Position numbers and translations under genes: made by a program
Origin: a virus
Strand: one strand, 5' to 3'
Virus record (IMG/VR): IMGVR_UViG_3300027541_000009
Location: 124,001-188,000 of that record
Length of the DNA stretch: 64,000 nucleotides
The notes under the pieces: model-generated
What the model was told of the DNA's origin: nothing
What the model saw: the letters and a program-made list of their open reading frames with translations, nothing else
Database searches by the model: none
Part shown: positions 3,053 to 32,625 of the stretch, in pieces
Layout of the letters: each line of letters begins with the position of its first letter
Position numbering within the stretch: position 1 is the stretch's first letter

Positions 3053-4126
3053 ATGAAAATCATTAAAGAAAAAGTATTAAGCGAGAAAGAGAAGCACTAT
3101 TCATATCCAATCAAGGTTGATAGTGATGAAGATGTAGTTTCTCTTAGTGATGCTAAGAGTACGGGAATGATTTTCTTGGGCGAGAGGGAAATAAACTATC
3201 CCAAGTTGTGGGATGGTGAAGAGTTTAAACTACCATTTAATGAATTTTTATTGAAAGAATATGATAATTCCTACTTTAGAATGATAGGTATTGAAAACTT
3301 TACTTATTATTGTGAGGGAAGTAGGGTAGAAGCTTTAAATATAGAACCATCATATGTTGACTTAGAGTTTGACCGAGTATTCTCTGCTCTAAATTATGGT
3401 GGTTATATATGGCAACACTTTGTTCAAGATGCTCTACCCATTATCGCATTTGCAAGAGAATTTCTTGAACAGAATCCTGATGTAACAATTTTATTATATG
3501 AAGGTGTTAATAAGAAATCTATATCTGACTTTTTTCTCAATAAATTAAATTTAAAAAACCCAGTATATTATGTTCCAAATTATACTCCATTTAGGTATGC
3601 TGAAATTTTAGCAAGAGCAAACAAGTTATATCTACTTGATTGTAATAATCATATGCCTTGTTATTGGTGGAATAACTTTTTCTATCAAGAGGCTAATGAG
3701 TTTATATTGAGAGATGAGAAATTTGAAAATAAAAATTTAATTTATCTGAACAGAAACAAAACAGCAACCTCAAGAATTTTTATTAATGAAGAAGAAACTG
3801 TTGATTACTTGAAACAATATGCAGAGAAAAACGATTTGAATTTTATAGATTATATTGACACAAATTATACGATTGAAGAAACATTTGATATTTTTAAAAA
3901 TGCACATACTGTAGTTGGGTGCCATGGCGGAGCAAATTATAATATAATATTCTGCCCTAAAGGTACAAAATTTATAGAGTATGTGTTTACAGATTGCATG
4001 TATACATTGTATAATATTGCTAGCTCTATAGAATTGGATTACTTTATAGTTCCTAATCGCGGAACTAATATGTCCGAAGGTGCTTTAGTAAAAATAAATA
4101 AACTGCAAAGATTATTGGAGAAATAG
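3053..4126 (+). CDS. GT61-like glycosyltransferase (DUF563 type)
   Basis: A 357-residue protein. The region from residue about 225 (NLIYLNRNKTATSRIFINEE) through the motif GCHGGANYNIIFCPKGTKFIE near residue 289 follows the GT61 pattern: R...R.i.NE, then an ivg.hGa.l.N loop and an iE strand. GT61 members transfer pentose or hexose units to glycans in plants and bacteria. Three bases separate it from the preceding gene and one from the next. The donor and acceptor are not determinable from sequence alone. Confidence 0.72.
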   Translation: MKIIKEKVLSEKEKHYSYPIKVDSDEDVVSLSDAKSTGMIFLGEREINYPKLWDGEEFKLPFNEFLLKEYDNSYFRMIGIENFTYYCEGSRVEALNIEPSYVDLEFDRVFSALNYGGYIWQHFVQDALPIIAFAREFLEQNPDVTILLYEGVNKKSISDFFLNKLNLKNPVYYVPNYTPFRYAEILARANKLYLLDCNNHMPCYWWNNFFYQEANEFILRDEKFENKNLIYLNRNKTATSRIFINEEETVDYLKQYAEKNDLNFIDYIDTNYTIEETFDIFKNAHTVVGCHGGANYNIIFCPKGTKFIEYVFTDCMYTLYNIASSIELDYFIVPNRGTNMSEGALVKINKLQRLLEK

Positions 4127-26327: not shown

Positions 26328-26785
26328 TTGAATACACTCAGTTCAATGGACCTTTGAGCAGTAGCACTTGTTCCAGCACCACCAGCAGTAACAGTAGGAA
26401 CACCAGTTGGTGAAAGAGTACCTGCAAGAGTTCCTTTCTCACCACCAACTTGAGTTACACTATCTCCGTAGAGATTTGGTGTTCCAATAACACCGTTAGT
26501 AACTGTTTGAGTATTAACTGGAGTATCAGCAGCATTGAAACTTTCAGAGAAAGTAAATGCTTGACCTGGAGTATTAATGTCATAGGTTCCAGCACCACCA
26601 ACACCTCCAAAGGATGTTGCTTGGATATTGGTTCCTGACGCCGAATAGGAAGCACCAATTCGAGTTGATTGAACTGCGGCACCATCAACTTTCAATTGAA
26701 CGGAATCAGTGATTTTTGATGTAATTTCAGCAGCATTAACTGGGATTGCGAAGAATAACGAAAAGGCTAATAGAAGTCTTTTCAT
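26324..26785 (-). CDS. Small exported protein, first gene of the minus-strand operon
   Basis: A 153-residue protein with a signal peptide (MKRLLLAFSLFFAIPVNA, cleaved before AEITS). The mature part is Gly/Ser/Thr-rich with the SGTNI and TPGQAFTFSE motifs it shares with its downstream paralogue, and ends RSIELSVFK. Low-complexity beta-forming composition without cysteine suggests a surface or extracellular protein; curlin-like assembly is only a speculation. A late-like box lies 30 bases upstream on the minus strand. Confidence 0.65.
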   Translation of the reverse strand: MKRLLLAFSLFFAIPVNAAEITSKITDSVQLKVDGAAVQSTRIGASYSASGTNIQATSFGGVGGAGTYDINTPGQAFTFSESFNAADTPVNTQTVTNGVIGTPNLYGDSVTQVGGEKGTLAGTLSPTGVPTVTAGGAGTSATAQRSIELSVFK

Positions 26786-26814
26786 TTTCTTATTGTTGTG
26801 ATAAACACTATGAG

Positions 26815-26821
26815 TATTTAG
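26815..26821 (-). promoter_or_regulatory. Late-like box for the minus-strand operon
   Basis: CTAAATA on the minus strand, 30 bases before the ATG at 26785. Confidence 0.5.
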
Positions 26822-26848
26822 GAGAGTGTCCCCATTTGGGGAGGGGGG

Positions 26849-26882
26849 TTGACACAGGCGGCAAACCGTAGTATGATAAATA
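26849..26882 (+). promoter_or_regulatory. psbA promoter (sigma-70-type plus late-like box)
   Basis: TTGACA at 26849-26854, 17-base spacer, TATGAT at 26872-26877. GATAAATA at 26875-26882 overlaps the -10, giving the same early/late double arrangement as the porin promoter. Confidence 0.7.
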
Positions 26883-26890
26883 GGTAAACA

Positions 26891-26996
26891 AATGTTACGG
26901 AACGCAACGTTCCCTTAACATTGTTAGACACCCGATAACCGAGACCTATGGGTGTATAAATTACGTCTCTCATATCCCCGCTAAGGGTGCGGGGAG
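26891..26996 (+). promoter_or_regulatory. Structured 5' leader of psbA
   Basis: The leader is about 160 bases. It holds a long hairpin (AATGTT 26891-26896 with AACATT 26917-26922, enclosing GGAACG 26899-26904 with CGTTCC 26908-26913). It also holds a GAGAC/GTCTC pair and a CCCCGC/GCGGGG hairpin near 26978-26996. No T-runs follow, so these are more likely stability or translation elements than terminators. Confidence 0.5.
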
Positions 26997-27045
26997 CATA
27001 GTATCTCCACCATTTCCCTGATGGTCTTACTAACTGCTTAAAACA

Positions 27046-28125
27046 ATGACTGCTACAATTTCACGTCAACGACAATCGAATACTTGGGAACAATTCTGCA
27101 ACTGGGTCACATCAACCGATAATCGTCTTTATGTCGGTTGGTTCGGAGTCCTCATGATTCCTTGCCTGCTTGCTGCTACGACTTGTTTCATCATCGCATT
27201 CATCGGTGCTCCCCCAGTGGACATTGATGGTATCCGTGAACCCGTTGCTGGTTCACTCATGTACGGAAACAACATCATCTCTGGTGCTGTTATTCCTTCG
27301 TCCAACGCGATTGGACTGCACTTTTATCCCATCTGGGAAGCTGCTTCGCTTGATGAGTGGCTTTACAACGGTGGTCCTTTCCAACTTGTAGTGTTCCACT
27401 TCCTTATCGGTATCTACGCTTACATGGGTCGTGAATGGGAACTTTCATACCGTCTTGGTATGCGTCCTTGGATCTGTGTTGCTTACTCTGCACCTGTGGC
27501 TGCTGCTTCTGCTGTGTTCCTGGTGTATCCTTTCGGTCAAGGTTCTTTCTCTGATGCGATGCCTCTGGGTATCTCTGGTACGTTCAACTATATGCTTGTG
27601 TTCCAGGCAGAGCACAACATCCTGATGCACCCCTTCCACATGCTTGGTGTGGCTGGTGTCTTTGGAGGTTCTCTGTTCAGTGCTATGCACGGTTCTCTGG
27701 TTACTTCCTCACTGGTTCGTGAAACCACTGAGAACGAGTCACAGAACTATGGTTACAAGTTTGGTCAAGAAGAAGAGACCTATAACATCGTTGCTGCTCA
27801 CGGTTATTTCGGACGCCTTATTTTCCAATATGCTTCCTTTAATAACTCACGTTCGCTGCACTTCTTCCTTGCTGCATGGCCTGTAGTTGGTATCTGGTTC
27901 ACTGCTCTTGGTGTTAGCACCATGGCATTCAACCTCAACGGTTTCAACTTTAACCAGTCCATCATTGATTCACAGGGTCGTGTCCTCAACACTTGGGCAG
28001 ATGTTCTGAACCGTGCTGGACTCGGGCTCGAGGTGATGCACGAAAGGAATGCACACAATTTCCCTCTGGATCTTGCTGCTGCTAGCAACACTCCTGTTGC
28101 CCTTACTGCACCCGCAATCGGTTGA
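27046..28125 (+). CDS. psbA: Photosystem II D1 protein
   Basis: A 359-residue D1 protein, full length, with five transmembrane helices and the usual ligands: [20 protein letters not shown] around the non-haem iron and quinone site, and the C-terminal [13 protein letters not shown] region for the manganese cluster. The C-terminal extension ([14 protein letters not shown]) would be removed by CtpA. Residue 130 is glutamate (GREWELS), the form linked to high-light D1 in cyanobacteria. It replaces damaged D1 during infection. The reading frame is not interrupted by an intron. Its own promoter and terminator make it a single-gene unit. Confidence 0.98.
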
Positions 28126-28151
28126 GTTTTATAAAAACTGAATAAGAATGA

Positions 28152-28178
28152 AGAGACCTTTACAGGTCTCTTTTTTTA
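28152..28178 (+). terminator. psbA terminator
   Basis: AGAGACC (28152-28158) pairs with GGTCTCT (28165-28171), followed by seven T. Confidence 0.85.
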
Positions 28179-28188
28179 TGGTATTATT

Positions 28189-28196
28189 CATAAATA
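28189..28196 (+). promoter_or_regulatory. Late-like box before the endonuclease gene
   Basis: CATAAATA, 27 bases before the ATG at 28223. Confidence 0.4.
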
Positions 28197-28222
28197 GTTC
28201 CATACCAAACTTCCATACCATA

Positions 28223-28585
28223 ATGAAAACTTGTAGTAGATGTGGAGAAACAAAAGAACTTGATAGTTTCTCTAAAAGAAGTAGTAGACCTTCTGGGGTT
28301 CAATCAAAGTGTAAGGATTGTGAACGGGAAGTTCGTAGGCAATATTATAAGACTCACGAATATGCTAGACGCAGATTTAAACTTACAGAAGACCAATATA
28401 ATGACCTAATGAAGAATGAGAACTGCCAAATATGTGATGTGGAACTAACCAAGAAGTGTATAGACCACTGCCACTCTACAAATAAGGTTCGTGGTGTTCT
28501 CTGTAACAACTGCAACACTGCATTAGGTCTTGTAGGAGACAACATCAGCACTCTTCAAAAGATGATAGAATACCTAAATAACTAA
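28223..28585 (+). CDS. Endonuclease VII-like HNH (His-Me finger) nuclease
   Basis: A 120-residue protein starting at ATG 28223; a longer frame running back into the psbA terminator is unlikely. An N-terminal zinc-ribbon-like part (CSRCGETKEL, CKDCEREVRRQYY) precedes CQICDV, IDHCHSTNKVRGVLCNNCN and ALGLVGDN. This is the pattern of recombination endonuclease VII-type enzymes (D-H-C-H, then CN.CN..LG). Such nucleases act as free-standing homing enzymes in phages. A free-standing homing endonuclease beside psbA is known in Synechococcus phage S-PM2, so this gene may spread the local psbA allele. Confidence 0.8.
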   Translation: MKTCSRCGETKELDSFSKRSSRPSGVQSKCKDCEREVRRQYYKTHEYARRRFKLTEDQYNDLMKNENCQICDVELTKKCIDHCHSTNKVRGVLCNNCNTALGLVGDNISTLQKMIEYLNN

Positions 28586-28600
28586 AAAGTATTCATAAAA

Positions 28601-29335
28601 ATGGACGCACAAGAACTTCGCAATCTTCAAGAAGCATATATGGAAGTTGTTGAAAATCAGCAACTGGATGAAATCTCTGATAGAAAAGTCAAAGGAATGT
28701 TAAGAAAGAGAGATGCACAAGATGTAGATAGTGGTGGTATAAGTGGTGCTTGGATGGCAAGACGCCGCGCTCATCAGGCAGCAGCAAGAAGAAATGTAAG
28801 AACAGGTTCAAATGTTCGTGTCGATTCTGATTTAGCAAAAGAAGAAGTAGATGTTTACGATCTAATTCTTTCACACTTACTTGATGAAGGATATGCTGAT
28901 ACTCAACAAGCAGCAGAAGCAATTATGGTGAATATGAGTGAAGAGTGGAGAGACAATATTATAGAAAGAGAGGATAGTCCTTATGAGAAAGCATCTGATG
29001 CTGCATTAGATAAAAGATATGGATATGGTAGAGCATCTGGTGATAAGCGTTCTTTCGGTAGAGCAGCAAATCGTTCATCTGCTGCCGCTGCCCTTCGTGC
29101 TATTAGAAGAGGTGAAAGAAGTGGTAGTGGAACTTCAAGAGAAGCAGGTGCTGATGCAGTTCATCAGGGTTGGGCAAGAACTGCTAAAACAAGTACAGAC
29201 CAAACACCAGAAAAGAAACAAAGAAGAGCAAAACTTGCTAATACATCATATTCAAATCTTCCCGATGATGAAAAGGAAAAGGATAGAGTATCTTTTGATG
29301 CTGTAAGAGCAACTTATAATAGAAACAAAAGATAA
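28601..29335 (+). CDS. Conserved-type cyanophage protein, basic, unknown function
   Basis: A 244-residue protein with an acidic N-terminal helix, a recognisable middle motif (YDLILSHLLDEGYADTQQAA, then EAIMVNMSEEWRDNII) and a long basic, Ser/Arg/Ala-rich C-terminal half (GRAANRSSAAAALRAIRRGE). The middle motif occurs in several T4-like cyanophage proteins as I recall them, some annotated as virion proteins, but I cannot assign a role. It is separated from the endonuclease by 15 bases and ends at a bidirectional-looking terminator. Confidence 0.6.
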   Translation: MDAQELRNLQEAYMEVVENQQLDEISDRKVKGMLRKRDAQDVDSGGISGAWMARRRAHQAAARRNVRTGSNVRVDSDLAKEEVDVYDLILSHLLDEGYADTQQAAEAIMVNMSEEWRDNIIEREDSPYEKASDAALDKRYGYGRASGDKRSFGRAANRSSAAAALRAIRRGERSGSGTSREAGADAVHQGWARTAKTSTDQTPEKKQRRAKLANTSYSNLPDDEKEKDRVSFDAVRATYNRNKR

Positions 29336-29340
29336 TAAAA

Positions 29341-29365
29341 AAGGAGGGATAAAACCCTCCTTTAA
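29341..29365 (+). terminator. Terminator between convergent genes
   Basis: AAGGAGGG (29341-29348) and CCCTCCTT (29355-29362). A-runs on the left and T-rich bases on the right make it usable from both strands. Confidence 0.75.
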
Positions 29366-29367
29366 CT

Positions 29368-29571
29368 TTATTTGGAACTTACAAAATCATTAATGATTTC
29401 TGCTTGTTCTAGAACTTGATTAAGTGTTGGAAACTCTGGATAATCCATTGCTACTTTTTTGTTCTCATCTTCATTCCAACGAACAGCAGTATCATATTCC
29501 ATGCTAAACTGGTCATTAAGCATATTATATGCTTGCTTAAAGATTTCAAATCGAAGTTCATAAGGTGTCAT
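29368..29571 (-). CDS. Small conserved-type cyanophage protein (67 residues)
   Basis: Read from the ATG at 29571, which has AGGAGA seven bases upstream; an in-frame ATG 12 codons earlier lacks this site. The product is acidic and helical (YELRFEIFKQAYNMLNDQFS, then DENKKVAMDYPEFPTLNQVL). Proteins of this type are common near photosynthesis genes in cyanophages as I recall. The function is unknown. It is convergent with the 244-residue gene. Confidence 0.6.
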   Translation of the reverse strand: MTPYELRFEIFKQAYNMLNDQFSMEYDTAVRWNEDENKKVAMDYPEFPTLNQVLEQAEIINDFVSSK

Positions 29572-29668
29572 AGATATTCTCCTAATGTGTGTGATGTGTG
29601 TTTCCACTAAGAAACTATATCATAAATTATCAAAAAGTCAAGTAATAATAAAAACCTATCCTCAGTTT

Positions 29669-29713
29669 TCTGAAGCAACTCCTGTTGCTCTCACTGCACC
29701 TTCAATTGGTTGA
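29669..29713 (+). pseudogene. psbA: Relic of a second psbA 3' end
   Basis: Bases 29669-29713 translate as [14 protein letters not shown] and stop, nearly the same as the D1 C-terminus of the psbA at 27046 ([13 protein letters not shown]). Over the last 36 bases, 31 are identical to psbA, and the differences fall mostly at third positions. The likeness continues into the 3' flank (ACTGAATAA in both) and is followed by a terminator. No upstream D1 sequence remains in frame. This looks like the leftover end of an earlier psbA next to psbD. Confidence 0.8.
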
Positions 29714-29738
29714 TAACAACTGAATAACTGATATAATT

Positions 29739-29764
29739 AGAGGGTGTAACAACCCTCTTTTTTT
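29739..29764 (+). terminator. Terminator after the psbA relic
   Basis: AGAGGGT (29739-29745) pairs with ACCCTCT (29752-29758) and continues into seven T. It probably served the lost psbA copy. Confidence 0.8.
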
Positions 29765-29887
29765 ATGTCTCATAATAATCAACATCATCCTATGGAACCC
29801 TGGATCATCTGGGCAGGTGTAGGTATGATGGTATTTACAGTTCTTGTATTTGTCTTATTCACTCTCGGTCAGATGTATTGGGGATAA
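29765..29887 (+). CDS. Small single-helix membrane protein (40 residues)
   Basis: The ATG begins directly at the end of the terminator T-run. The product has a polar, His-rich N-terminus (SHNNQHHPMEPW) and one transmembrane helix (WAGVGMMVFTVLVFVLFTLG). It lies between the psbA relic and psbD. No photosystem subunit is recognised with confidence, although a thylakoid peptide would suit the place. There is no obvious ribosome-binding site. Confidence 0.45.
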   Translation: MSHNNQHHPMEPWIIWAGVGMMVFTVLVFVLFTLGQMYWG

Positions 29888-29926
29888 GCACAAACACTCA
29901 TTGACTACTTTGTTAAGGAATGTTAA

Positions 29927-29934
29927 GATAAATA
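29927..29934 (+). promoter_or_regulatory. Late-like box for psbD
   Basis: GATAAATA, 22 bases before the psbD ATG, which has a strong AAGGAGGT ribosome-binding site. Confidence 0.55.
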
Positions 29935-29955
29935 TGAGAAATAACTAAGGAGGTT

Positions 29956-31017
29956 ATGACTTCTTCTACACTTTCACAACCTATTCAACAACGAGGATGG
30001 TTTGATGTACTCGATGACTGGCTTAAAAGAGACCGTTTCGTTTTTGTTGGCTGGTCTGGACTTCTTCTTTTTCCCACTGCTTATCTTGCTCTTGGTGGTT
30101 GGATTACTGGGACAACTTTCGTCACGAGTTGGTATACTCACGGGCTTGCGAGTTCCTATCTTGAGGGTGCAAACTTTCTTACTGCAGCAGTTAGTACTCC
30201 AGCAGATTCTATGGGTCATTCTCTTCTTCTGCTCTGGGGTCCTGAGGCTCAAGGGGATATCGTCAGGTGGTTCCAACTTGGGGGACTATGGACTTTTGTG
30301 GCGCTCCACGGGGCCTTTAGTCTGATCGGATTTATGCTTCGCCAGTTTGAGATCTCACGACTGGTAGGCATCCGTCCTTACAACGCAATTGCATTCTCTG
30401 GTCCCATCGCAGTGTTTGTGAGCGTCTTCCTGATGTACCCTCTGGGTCAATCCAGTTGGTTCTTTGCACCTTCCTTTGGTGTTGCTGCTATCTTCAGGTT
30501 CCTTCTGTTCCTTCAGGGTTTTCACAACTGGACTCTTAACCCATTTCATATGATGGGTGTTGCTGGTATACTGGGTGGAGCACTGCTCTGTGCTATTCAC
30601 GGAGCAACTGTAGAAAACACACTATTTGAAGATAGTGATCAAGCAAATACATTCAAGGCATTCGAACCAACACAAGAGGAAGAAACCTATTCAATGGTTA
30701 CTGCTAACCGTTTCTGGTCGCAAATCTTTGGAATTGCTTTTAGTAACAAGCGTTGGTTACATTTCTTTATGCTCTTTGTTCCCGTCATGGGTCTCTGGAC
30801 ATCTTCTATCGGGATTATCGGTCTTGCTCTCAATCTTCGTGCTTACGACTTTGTTAGTCAGGAGATTGAAGCAGCCGTCAATCCGGAATACGAAACTTTC
30901 TACACGAAGAATATACTTCTTAACGAAGGGCTTCGTGCTTGGATGGCTCCCGTAGACCAACCACATGAAAATTTTGTTTTTCCAGAGGAAGTTTTGCCTC
31001 GGGGCAACGCACTTTGA
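29956..31017 (+). CDS. psbD: Photosystem II D2 protein
   Basis: A 353-residue full-length D2 protein with five transmembrane helices. Visible family segments are [20 protein letters not shown], the [20 protein letters not shown] iron/quinone segment and the C-terminal [16 protein letters not shown]. It pairs with D1 in the photosystem II core and is usually carried by broad-range cyanomyoviruses. The ribosome-binding site is AAGGAGG. It has its own terminator. A gap of 1.8 kb with the nuclease and relic sequence separates it from psbA. Confidence 0.98.
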
Positions 31018-31021
31018 TTTT

Positions 31022-31048
31022 AAAGACCTCATTGTTGGGGTCTTTTTT
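31022..31048 (+). terminator. psbD terminator
   Basis: AAAGACC (31022-31028) pairs with GGTCTTT (31039-31045), extended by G-U and G-C pairs, then T-rich sequence. Confidence 0.8.
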
Positions 31049-31077
31049 ATTTACATAAGACCCAAAGTATGATAAAA

Positions 31078-31085
31078 TATAAATA
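31078..31085 (+). promoter_or_regulatory. T4-like late promoter box
   Basis: TATAAATA, 26 bases before the homing-endonuclease-like gene at 31111. Confidence 0.5.
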
Positions 31086-31110
31086 ATAATAGATATTCAA
31101 AGTTAGGATA

Positions 31111-31680
31111 ATGCCCTTAAATAATAAATCAAAACCTTGTGGTGCTTTGATTGGTAAAAAATTTGGAAAACTTACTGTCCTGAAAGAAGAAGTAGTCTTT
31201 AAGAGTGGGAAGAATAGAGTTTATTCAACTTGTAAATGTGAATGTGGTGGAGAAAAAACTTGCGAGAGATATGGTCTTATGAATGGTTCAACTACTAGTT
31301 GTGGGTGTGTTAGGAGAGAAACTACTATTGCTTTTAATAAAACTAAAAAGAAACCAGAAGGTGAATTAAAAAAAGACGATAGAAGATATAGTATGTTTCA
31401 TAATGCTCAACATAGGGCAAAAAGAAAGGGTATTCCATTTAGTATAACTATAGATGATATTATTATTCCAGAAACTTGTCCTTTACTTGGAATACCTCTT
31501 GTATCTACTAATGATAAAAGAGATCCAAGAAATCCTAGTTTAGATCAAAAGGTTCCTGGTAAAGGATATACCCCCGATAATATTTGGGTTATATCTTCAA
31601 GAGCGAATGCCCTAAAATGGGACGCATCCCTACAAGAATTAGAACTCCTAGTAGAAAACCTCAAATGCTTCTCATCTTAG
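31111..31680 (+). CDS. HNH-type homing-endonuclease-like protein
   Basis: A 189-residue protein. The N-terminal third has a zinc-binding look (CKCECGGEKTCERYGLMNG, SCGCVRRE). The C-terminal part has CPLLGIPL and SLDQKVPGKGYTPDNIWVIS with RANALKWDAS, the common pattern of phage His-Me finger endonucleases (lDr..p.kGYt..Nv..is.raN..K). It lies just after psbD, so both photosystem genes have a nuclease gene immediately downstream. It may be a selfish element or help recombination at this locus. Its end overlaps a tiny membrane frame. Confidence 0.75.
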   Translation: MPLNNKSKPCGALIGKKFGKLTVLKEEVVFKSGKNRVYSTCKCECGGEKTCERYGLMNGSTTSCGCVRRETTIAFNKTKKKPEGELKKDDRRYSMFHNAQHRAKRKGIPFSITIDDIIIPETCPLLGIPLVSTNDKRDPRNPSLDQKVPGKGYTPDNIWVISSRANALKWDASLQELELLVENLKCFSS

Positions 31681-31739
31681 TTCTCTTCCAACTTTTTGGA
31701 ATCCTAATGTTTATATTATCTGTTATGCAGGACTTATGA
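31665..31739 (+). CDS. Possible 24-residue membrane peptide
   Basis: ATG at 31665 inside the end of the nuclease gene opens a wholly hydrophobic frame (LLILVLFQLFGILMFILS). Its stop overlaps the following ATG (ATGA). Tight coupling supports it, small size argues against it. Confidence 0.35.
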   Translation: MLLILVLFQLFGILMFILSVMQDL

Positions 31740-31867
31740 TAACTTCTACAACACCATACAAACTCGCAGAAATTATTCGTGATACATGGCCTGGACTTTA
31801 CAGACCACCAGTAAAGACTTATAATAAATCTTCTATAAATATTCCACAAAATTGCAGAAAAAAATGA
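31736..31867 (+). CDS. Small 43-residue protein
   Basis: ATG overlaps the stop of the membrane peptide, and its own stop overlaps the glutaredoxin start (ATGA). The product (TPYKLAEIIRDTWPGLYRPP, then a basic end) is soluble. I know no function. The unbroken chain of overlaps through this stretch supports a real gene. Confidence 0.45.
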   Translation: MITSTTPYKLAEIIRDTWPGLYRPPVKTYNKSSINIPQNCRKK

Positions 31868-32100
31868 AGTTCACAGTTTATTCAAAAGATGGTTGCCCAT
31901 ATTGCACAAAAGTTCAACAGGTGCTAGAGTTGGCACAACTGCAACATGTAGTCTACAAATTGAATAGTGATTTTAGTAGAGAAGAATTTTATTCAGAATT
32001 CGGAGAGGGATCTACCTTTCCTCAAGTGATTGTAAATGACCAACACATTGGTGGATGCACCGATACTGTTCAATATCTAAAGGAGCAAAATCTAGTTTAA
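31864..32100 (+). CDS. Glutaredoxin
   Basis: A 78-residue thioredoxin-fold protein with the active-site CxxC in KDGCPYCTK near residues 9-17, TFPQVIVND (cis-proline) near 53 and GGCTD near 66, the standard glutaredoxin set. I took ATG at 31864, which overlaps the preceding stop, over a TTG four codons earlier. It can reduce disulphides, including those of ribonucleotide reductase and the type II peroxiredoxin encoded at 18003. Confidence 0.88.
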   Translation: MKFTVYSKDGCPYCTKVQQVLELAQLQHVVYKLNSDFSREEFYSEFGEGSTFPQVIVNDQHIGGCTDTVQYLKEQNLV

Positions 32101-32459
32101 TGGAAAACACCATTCACGAAGTTTGTAACGATGTAGAAAAAGCAATTGATTATGCTTTCAATGGTCAATTTGTTTTGAGTTTTTATGATTATCTAAAAGT
32201 TCGTGGAACTAAAAAAGTAGAGGTTGAACAATTTATTGAAAGTAATACAGCACACGAGCTGAGTAATCTTGTAATGGATTTGGATGATTATCTTGAGGGT
32301 GGATCAGATGAGATTCATAAACAACTTCGTGAAGGATATGGACATATTCCAAAACCACAAGCAAGAAAAATAAGAAATTACCTTTACGGTATTCTTGAAG
32401 ATGCCTGGAGATATAATCATGACAAAAGACCAGGAAGGAGAAAGAAGCAAACTAAATAA
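32100..32459 (+). CDS. Hypothetical 119-residue protein
   Basis: The start at 32100 overlaps the glutaredoxin stop (TAATG). The product is acidic and helical (EVCNDVEKAIDYAFNGQFVL, DLDDYLEGGSDEIHKQL) with a basic tail (KRPGRRKKQTK). No motif is recognised. It overlaps the next gene by 41 bases. Confidence 0.55.
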   Translation: MENTIHEVCNDVEKAIDYAFNGQFVLSFYDYLKVRGTKKVEVEQFIESNTAHELSNLVMDLDDYLEGGSDEIHKQLREGYGHIPKPQARKIRNYLYGILEDAWRYNHDKRPGRRKKQTK

Positions 32460-32625
32460 GTCAGAACCTCAAATTAATAGGGGTGTTGAATTATTACTAC
32501 GCAATAGGAGGAGAAAATCATCAACGCCAAAGACTTTTCAAGTGAAGTTTGGTAAAATGATTTCTCTCTTCCGTAGAGAGTTTCATTTCTTTATAGAATT
32601 TCATTTTGATATTAGGAAAAAATAA
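32419..32625 (+). CDS. Small basic protein (68 residues)
   Basis: I chose ATG at 32419 (MTKDQEGERSK); an earlier in-frame start lies deep in the upstream gene. The protein is rich in Arg, Lys and Phe (ELLLRNRRRK, MISLFRREFHFFIEFHFDIR), which suggests nucleic-acid or membrane-surface binding. The 41-base overlap with the preceding gene means both frames are constrained there. The family is unknown. Confidence 0.5.
   Translation: MTKDQEGERSKLNKSEPQINRGVELLLRNRRRKSSTPKTFQVKFGKMISLFRREFHFFIEFHFDIRKK

Follow-up and report, generated by a model that had tools for sequence, protein, structure and literature searches.

A displaced psbA 3' end before o40 and psbD in a cyanobacterial virus and its probable link to endonuclease-driven exchange of psbA ends

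The photosynthesis gene psbA, much studied in viruses, serves as a marker of exchange between phages and their hosts. A 64,000-nt stretch of DNA from a cyanobacterial virus (positions 124,001-188,000 of IMG/VR record IMGVR_UViG_3300027541_000009; hereafter the window, to which all coordinates refer unless another locus is named) contains an intact, intronless psbA for D1 (27046-28125, plus strand, 359 aa, a single open frame) and, further downstream, a short psbA end that stands without a gene body upstream of psbD. The questions raised by this locus are which psbA the end belonged to and how it was separated from the rest of its gene.

Identity of the relic and its former position

Positions 29678-29713 (ACT CCT ... 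GGT TGA) represent the last 11 psbA codons and the stop, and 31 of the 36 bases, counted by eye, are equal to the end of the intact psbA. A search of the whole 284,050-base record with positions 29640-29764 as the query produced matches at E <= 0.001 only for the query itself and for the psbA 3' end (E = 5.9e-8), so that a chance match was ruled out as the origin of the relic, and the psbA-like end named in the initial annotation was confirmed. The psbA-derived part begins at 29670 (CTGAAG) and not at 29678; as delimited by sequence comparison, the displaced tail contains 13 codons and the TGA stop (29670-29713, plus strand) and reads CT GAA GCA ACT CCT GTT GCT CTC ACT GCA CCT TCA ATT GGT TGA.

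Behind the tail come the 3' flank and terminator that originally belonged to the displaced psbA (29714-29764, plus strand, assigned by comparison with relatives), then o40, a gene of 40 aa whose place in relatives is between psbA and psbD (29765-29887, plus strand, PHROG 7358), and then psbD for D2 (29956-31017, plus strand, 353 aa, identified as an ORF and by its match). Results showed that 15 related loci, among which two pairs are alike, have an intact psbA followed by a flank of the same kind and by o40, upstream of psbD; the flank in most of them reads TGATAA.AACTGAATAACTGATATAATTA, then GAGGGTRTAAYAACCCTC and a T-run. The relic tail and flank demonstrated 84-95% identity to the intact psbA ends of psbA-o40-psbD loci, with L037 the closest (94.6% over 93 bases) and L032 the lowest. 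Since the relic has the flank and terminator of these loci, it represents the 3' end of a former psbA located before o40 and psbD, and since o40 sits between the tail and psbD, the old order was psbA-o40-psbD. Its identity as a displaced end of a psbA before o40-psbD is considered nearly certain. The initial annotation had placed a former psbA directly before psbD, which holds for the order of the two genes and fails on their direct contact, as o40 lies in between. The relic had also been credited with a terminator of its own; this is present (29740-29764), and it is of the type found after psbA in psbA-o40-psbD phages, so that it was not copied from the terminator behind the intact psbA. The latter gene has a different flank (28126-28219, plus strand) with a GAGACC..GGTCTC terminator, of the type seen in carriers of an HNH endonuclease (91-95% to L029, L089, L094, and L107). 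Tails in phages without psbA, mentioned beforehand as a case that would point to another origin, did not appear, and all contigs with the relic-specific pattern (6/6) carry psbA upstream of the pattern.

Two further features were observed around psbD. A second endonuclease-like gene is located directly behind psbD in the window (31111-31680, PHROG 3322, E 1.8e-31). In the cultured phage S-PM2 (L419), the gene behind the endonuclease gene F-CphI runs into a remnant of the o40 3' end (4001-4030, TATTGGGGATGA), followed by psbD; this o40 remnant is the same sort of relic.

One origin that had been proposed for the relic is a tandem psbA duplication of which the second copy was then largely lost. 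Such a loss would leave an intact gene with a truncated copy next to it, but the two 3' flanks are of different types, foreign genes lie between them, and other displaced ends described below end at the HNH end. Furthermore, two psbA genes were found in none of the loci with an unsplit full-length psbA (0/160, a count in which several loci come from one contig). A lost tandem copy is thus not borne out and is regarded as highly improbable.

The left junction and its occurrence in a second lineage

Directly left of the tail the sequence is no longer psbA; it consists of the 5' stub of a foreign gene and, beyond this stub, of the promoter side of o79. The o79 gene (29368-29571, minus strand) is an ORF for a hypothetical protein that is also present in other phages without the psbA tail; its ATG start was chosen by eye, and the mechanical ORF extends to a GTG at 29607. 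A sigma70-like promoter for o79 (TTGACT / TATAGT-like, 29612-29641, minus strand) was placed by eye, with similar ones in L169, L172, and L180. The gene from which the stub derives is intact in these other phages, beside o79 and divergent from it; the L172 form (ATGAAAACCTACCAGCAGTTCTCTGAAGAC.., protein MKTYQQFSED..) has 65 aa, and a homologue of the same length is present in L170. In the window, the comparison with other phages left only a 5' stub of this gene (29648-29675, plus strand) with ATA as its start codon. The stub and the psbA tail share CTGAAG (29670-29675, plus strand), a 6-base microhomology deduced from relatives of both parents, and CTGAAG is also present in psbA ends of the type GCTGCTGAAGCAACT. 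Judged from these sequences, the relic is a microhomology junction of two truncated genes.

Six of the 80 loci fetched with o79 carried the psbA tail, and these were the phage of the window itself (L163-L166) and a second lineage (L168, L171). The identical relic junction was present on two contigs, one seen as L034, L168, L243, and L285 and the other as L171 and L248. In the left part of the comparison between L248 and the window, identity was 88.3% for psbA, 59% for the psbA-HNH spacer, and 50% for the HNH gene (37% in protein). It was 96.1% for the N-part and 99.1% for the C-part of the gene o244, 94.2% for o79, and 95.2% for promoter and stub, while the right part showed 39 of 44 bases in the tail, 51 of 51 from the tail to o40, 95.9% in o40, and 84.5% in psbD. 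The start codon of the stub is lost in both lineages alike. The relic block descended as a unit, with psbA and the endonuclease to its left exchanged. Because the same junction occurs with an endonuclease that is 37% identical in protein, at least one of the two lineages acquired its present endonuclease after the relic had formed.

A side observation concerns the tail itself, where five differences fall within 16 bases (29692-29707, compared with L248 4341-4356), four of them synonymous, and the neighbouring bases on both sides are unchanged; this cluster is perhaps a small gene-conversion patch from an intact psbA.

The conservation of the block also bears on whether the tail was kept for a function, either as a terminator that insulates psbD or as the end of a 42-aa ORF that is made. 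The flank and terminator unchanged between the two lineages (51/51 bases) and the synonymous nature of 4/5 tail differences are in line with such a function, but no ribosome-binding site was seen by eye before the 42-aa ORF, the other lineage has a P-to-S change, and the start codon of the stub is lost in both. A functional reason for the tail is judged very unlikely.

Endonuclease genes and displaced psbA ends in related phages

The flank of the intact psbA leads into a gene for an Endo VII-type HNH endonuclease of the F-CphI kind (28220-28585, plus strand; PF02945; 36% to F-CphI of S-PM2). The Endo VII domain PF02945 was found at residues 50-121 (E 5.9e-18), and the protein matches PHROG 2633 (E 3.6e-37). 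Its residues C68, D81, H82, R90, and N98 correspond to C84, D101, H102, R110, and N118 of F-CphI and are invariant in 8/8 aligned sequences; in the available portion of the F-CphI report, these are given as important residues for catalysis or binding (PMC6083498). Solved relatives by sequence were Hpy99I (E 3.5e-6) and T4 endonuclease VII (E 0.0044). Site-specific cutting of psbA is a putative activity of the window protein. In L060 and L080, a relative of this endonuclease gene lies directly behind psbA on the opposite strand.

Several observations were made on the surrounding genes. The hypothetical protein gene o244 (28601-29335, plus strand) equals an in-frame join of two L248 paralogues: compared with L248 2716-3984, it has the N-part of one neighbouring paralogue and the C-part of the other, and the join lies within a stretch common to both (LLDEGYA..QAAEAIMVNMSEEW). 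A full-length o244 homologue is present in L035. A PhotoRC-II RNA motif precedes psbA (26916-27009, Rfam RF01717, 84.1 bits) and was the only Rfam match above gathering score over 26500-32500. In L010, L036, L112, L118, and L120, psbA was matched in three to six pieces, which suggests introns near codons 61, 107, 185, 231, 298, and 334-337.

In a tree of 104 psbA bodies, the body of the window psbA was sister to that of L079 (support 0.936), which has the psbA-o40-psbD arrangement with the old flank and no endonuclease in between. Identity of psbA bodies to the window was 92.8% for L006, 92.5% for L023, 92.2% for L017, and 91.8% for L079; L006 and L023 carry the old flank, and L017 is an HNH carrier that is nearly as close. 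The 3' flank of the window psbA is 94-95% identical to that of the endonuclease carriers L107, L029, and L094, while its last 48 coding bases showed 65-88% to HNH carriers and no clear match. When parts of the window psbA were compared with HNH carriers, no sharp switch of identity like that in L259 and L339 (below) was seen. Clear likeness to the carriers is confined to the 3' flank, and a foreign origin of the last codons is at most putative. With a body that is sister to the psbA of L079, which has no HNH gene, and a 3' flank of the carrier type, the window psbA fits an exchanged 3' end better than a replaced gene, and it seems that mostly its 3' end was exchanged.

A scan of 327 loci for psbA tails detached from a psbA body showed L115 and L259 besides the relic, and further fetching with the L259 fusion as the query yielded L339 and L340. 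Eight weak motif matches (L068, L094, L135, L149, L253, L269, L288, and L319) were discarded by eye as not psbA-like. The endonuclease frame of L259 (6 contigs) ends in ..AIEYL and 15 further residues, followed by a terminator resembling the psbA-o40 kind; that of L339/L340 ends in ..AIQYL and 16 residues, that of L115 in ..MIEYL, AATDATPVALPAPTK, and a stop, and that of L117 in ..MIEYL, G, and a stop, after which a psbA flank follows. A psbA flank also follows the HNH gene in L108/L109. In L035, L014/L015/L128, L130/L131, and L268, what is left behind another gene is the old stop with its flank or no more than the flank. At about 6129-6166 of L259, a 3'-end relic of another endonuclease gene (..ISTLQKMIEYLK and a stop) was observed just before the present one; endonucleases too seem to leave tails on replacement.

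A displaced-end search with a trimmed panel of psbA ends and two controls showed that the pattern recurs. At E < 1e-5, a displaced psbA end was present behind the HNH gene in 9 of 48 distinct psbA-HNH regions, which is no unbiased frequency, as these are one region per distinct arrangement as fetched and no random sample, with L339 retrieved by means of the L259 fusion and one event counted twice, in the window and in L285. Five of the nine ends lie directly behind the HNH gene and four after other genes; the other 39 regions had no displaced end at this threshold, and the other strand (0/48) and reversed decoys (0/48) produced none. At E < 1e-3, there were displaced ends in 13/48 regions as against 2 on the other strand and 1 with reversed decoys. 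A search with longer flanks, in which 53/65 entries matched on the plus strand and 43/65 on the minus strand, was discarded because the panel flanks held other genes and generic terminators.

Comparison of L259 with L339 showed that their psbA bodies are about 75% identical (37-50/60 per block), while from codon ~344 onward the two agree at 59/60 across the last psbA codons, the stop, and the flank, and at 54-59/60 in the inner blocks of the HNH gene. Past the last codons of the endonuclease they split again, into different old psbA tails and unrelated downstream DNA. L317 has the L339 context without the insert (51-59/60 in ten blocks before the junction region and 53-59/60 downstream), and its psbA end is unlike the displaced tail of L339. 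From these three loci it follows that the mobile unit consists of a replacement psbA 3' end, its flank, and the endonuclease, and that an old end is displaced. The codons replaced in these hybrid psbA genes (345-359) follow ..LDLA, which we take to be the site after which D1 is trimmed. The C-terminal extension of D1 is cut off during maturation; as codons 345-359 encode this extension, their swap would be nearly neutral.

The preferred reading, with a probability of about 0.7 for the statement as a whole, is an endonuclease-driven replacement of psbA 3' ends in which the old end is displaced. An F-CphI-like endonuclease would cut the psbA of a co-infecting phage close to the 3' end, and repair with a one-sided illegitimate join would bring in a cassette made up of a replacement psbA 3' end (last codons, stop, and new terminator), the endonuclease, and passengers such as o244 and o79. 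The left side of the cassette would be joined through homology inside psbA and the right side via a few matching bases, for which reason the old psbA end would be kept and pushed behind the cassette; psbA would remain functional thanks to the new end it acquired. Two features count against the 3'-swap explanation for the particular junction in the window: the tail borders on the o79-side stub and not on the HNH gene, and the HNH gene differs from that of the second lineage with this junction. For this lineage, the junction may have been made by a segment ending in the o79-side stub, with the endonuclease exchanged since, either here or in the sister lineage.

Replacement of the whole gene, with donor psbA, endonuclease, and passengers joined through homologous recombination on the upstream side and illegitimately at the last codons so that the old tail stayed behind, would give the same end product, and the 12% difference in psbA between the two relic lineages indicates that psbA bodies do get exchanged. 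It is set against the sister position of the window psbA body to that of a psbA-o40 phage without HNH and against the switch at codon ~344 in L259 and L339, where the bodies remain different, and is considered distinctly unlikely. The same tree position and the shared junction beside so divergent an endonuclease leave the initial proposal, that the present psbA with its endonuclease replaced the old one, unsupported as worded. The trace of recombination that had been noted is supported, and related phages show its link with endonuclease genes.

The junction in the window might also have arisen by accretion without endonuclease action, in which an o244-o79-stub segment came in via microhomology, a template switch duplicated the psbA end, and the HNH gene is incidental. 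The actual junction, stub and tail with a 6-base match, is of this form, and L035 has o244 and the old flank with no HNH match; however, the displaced ends in L259, L339, L115, and L117 are fused directly to HNH frames, and no o79 was found there. Accretion of this kind is rather unlikely.

Outside psbA, the endonuclease behind gp44 (clamp loader) in the cultured phage S-8S53 ends in ..EKYL, MECEFK, and a stop, a gp44-type end, and gp44 in three phages without the endonuclease ends in ..MVECEFK or ..MVECNFK and a stop. In L342/L343, a relative of the L259 endonuclease (89%) lies behind gp44, and an out-of-frame repeat, GGAGTGTGAATTCAA, is present on either side of it. S-8S53 has a tail in front that equals that of the relative S-CAM9 and a differing one behind, so displaced tails can travel as passengers and need not be native; the L339 tail, unlike the psbA end of L317, points the same way. 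A set of 62 distinct endonuclease ends, defined as those fitting one regular expression and leaving out L259 and L339, showed 40 different sequences beyond the domain's ..YL, some of which equal the site sequence by eye (NVS and a stop from the o40 start region). A general direct-repeat scan around HNH genes (118 items) served as a source of leads only (L342/L343 at gp44): its best observed value of 22.0 was below the null 99th percentile of 23.5, and it has no clean statistic because psbA was paired with psbA in part of the null. Several of the top rows (L345, L347, L355, L358, and L363) resemble tRNA genes by eye.

As a wider proposal, held at somewhat less than even odds, the Endo VII-type endonuclease genes of cyanophages may be mobile swappers of 3' ends that themselves lack a fixed end. 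Such a unit would stop at the last helix (..YL), borrow codons and a stop from the landing site, and give the invaded gene a new 3' end; psbA would be favoured since the swapped codons are those of the trimmed D1 extension, and the stranded tails would be a record of past invasions.

Comparison with known systems

The available portion of the S-PM2 study describes F-CphI as a free-standing Endo VII-type homing endonuclease beside psbA, with an intron shielding psbA from the phage's own enzyme (PMC6083498). Gene order in S-PM2 is psbA-endonuclease-gene-psbD. The window likewise has an Endo VII-type endonuclease directly behind psbA, with conserved catalytic residues; unlike in S-PM2, no intron interrupts its psbA, and further downstream there is a displaced psbA end. 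Collaborative homing with a psbA group I intron does not apply to the window, where psbA is unsplit.

The SegF and MobA cassettes of T4 are known examples of intronless homing or endonuclease-bounded exchange in phages. In intronless homing, according to the accessible part of one source, a free-standing endonuclease spreads between co-infecting phages and marks the boundaries of exchange (PMC10448857); displaced ends of target genes are not described in that part, unlike what was found here. The literature searched, which held few subscription papers and included the accessible parts of PMC6083498, PMC10448857, and PMC2984593, yielded no description of target-gene ends displaced behind endonucleases of phages.

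A further likeness is to the fungal mitochondrial mORF elements, which, in the portion of the source available, supply their target gene with a replacement C-terminus, the native one being displaced (Glomus atp6, atp9, cox2, and nad3; Allomyces atp6) (PMC3630166). As described there, the order of gene body, new 3' end, endonuclease, and displaced old 3' end is the one seen in L259 and L339, and a displaced target 3' end lies behind the insert in the window and in 8 others of the 48 regions, among these eight the second lineage with the same junction. The elements differ in enzyme and setting, which are LAGLIDADG or GIY-YIG in mitochondria according to that portion and Endo VII-type in phage psbA here, and in the window other genes also lie between the enzyme and the displaced end. 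As the enzyme is of the Endo VII type and not LAGLIDADG or GIY-YIG, the phage elements are not members of the fungal mORF type and only work alike. If endonuclease elements keep swapping psbA 3' ends, the ends and bodies of psbA would differ in history, and stranded tails would allow past invasions to be counted and ordered; a mechanism known from fungal mitochondria would then extend to phages with another enzyme family.
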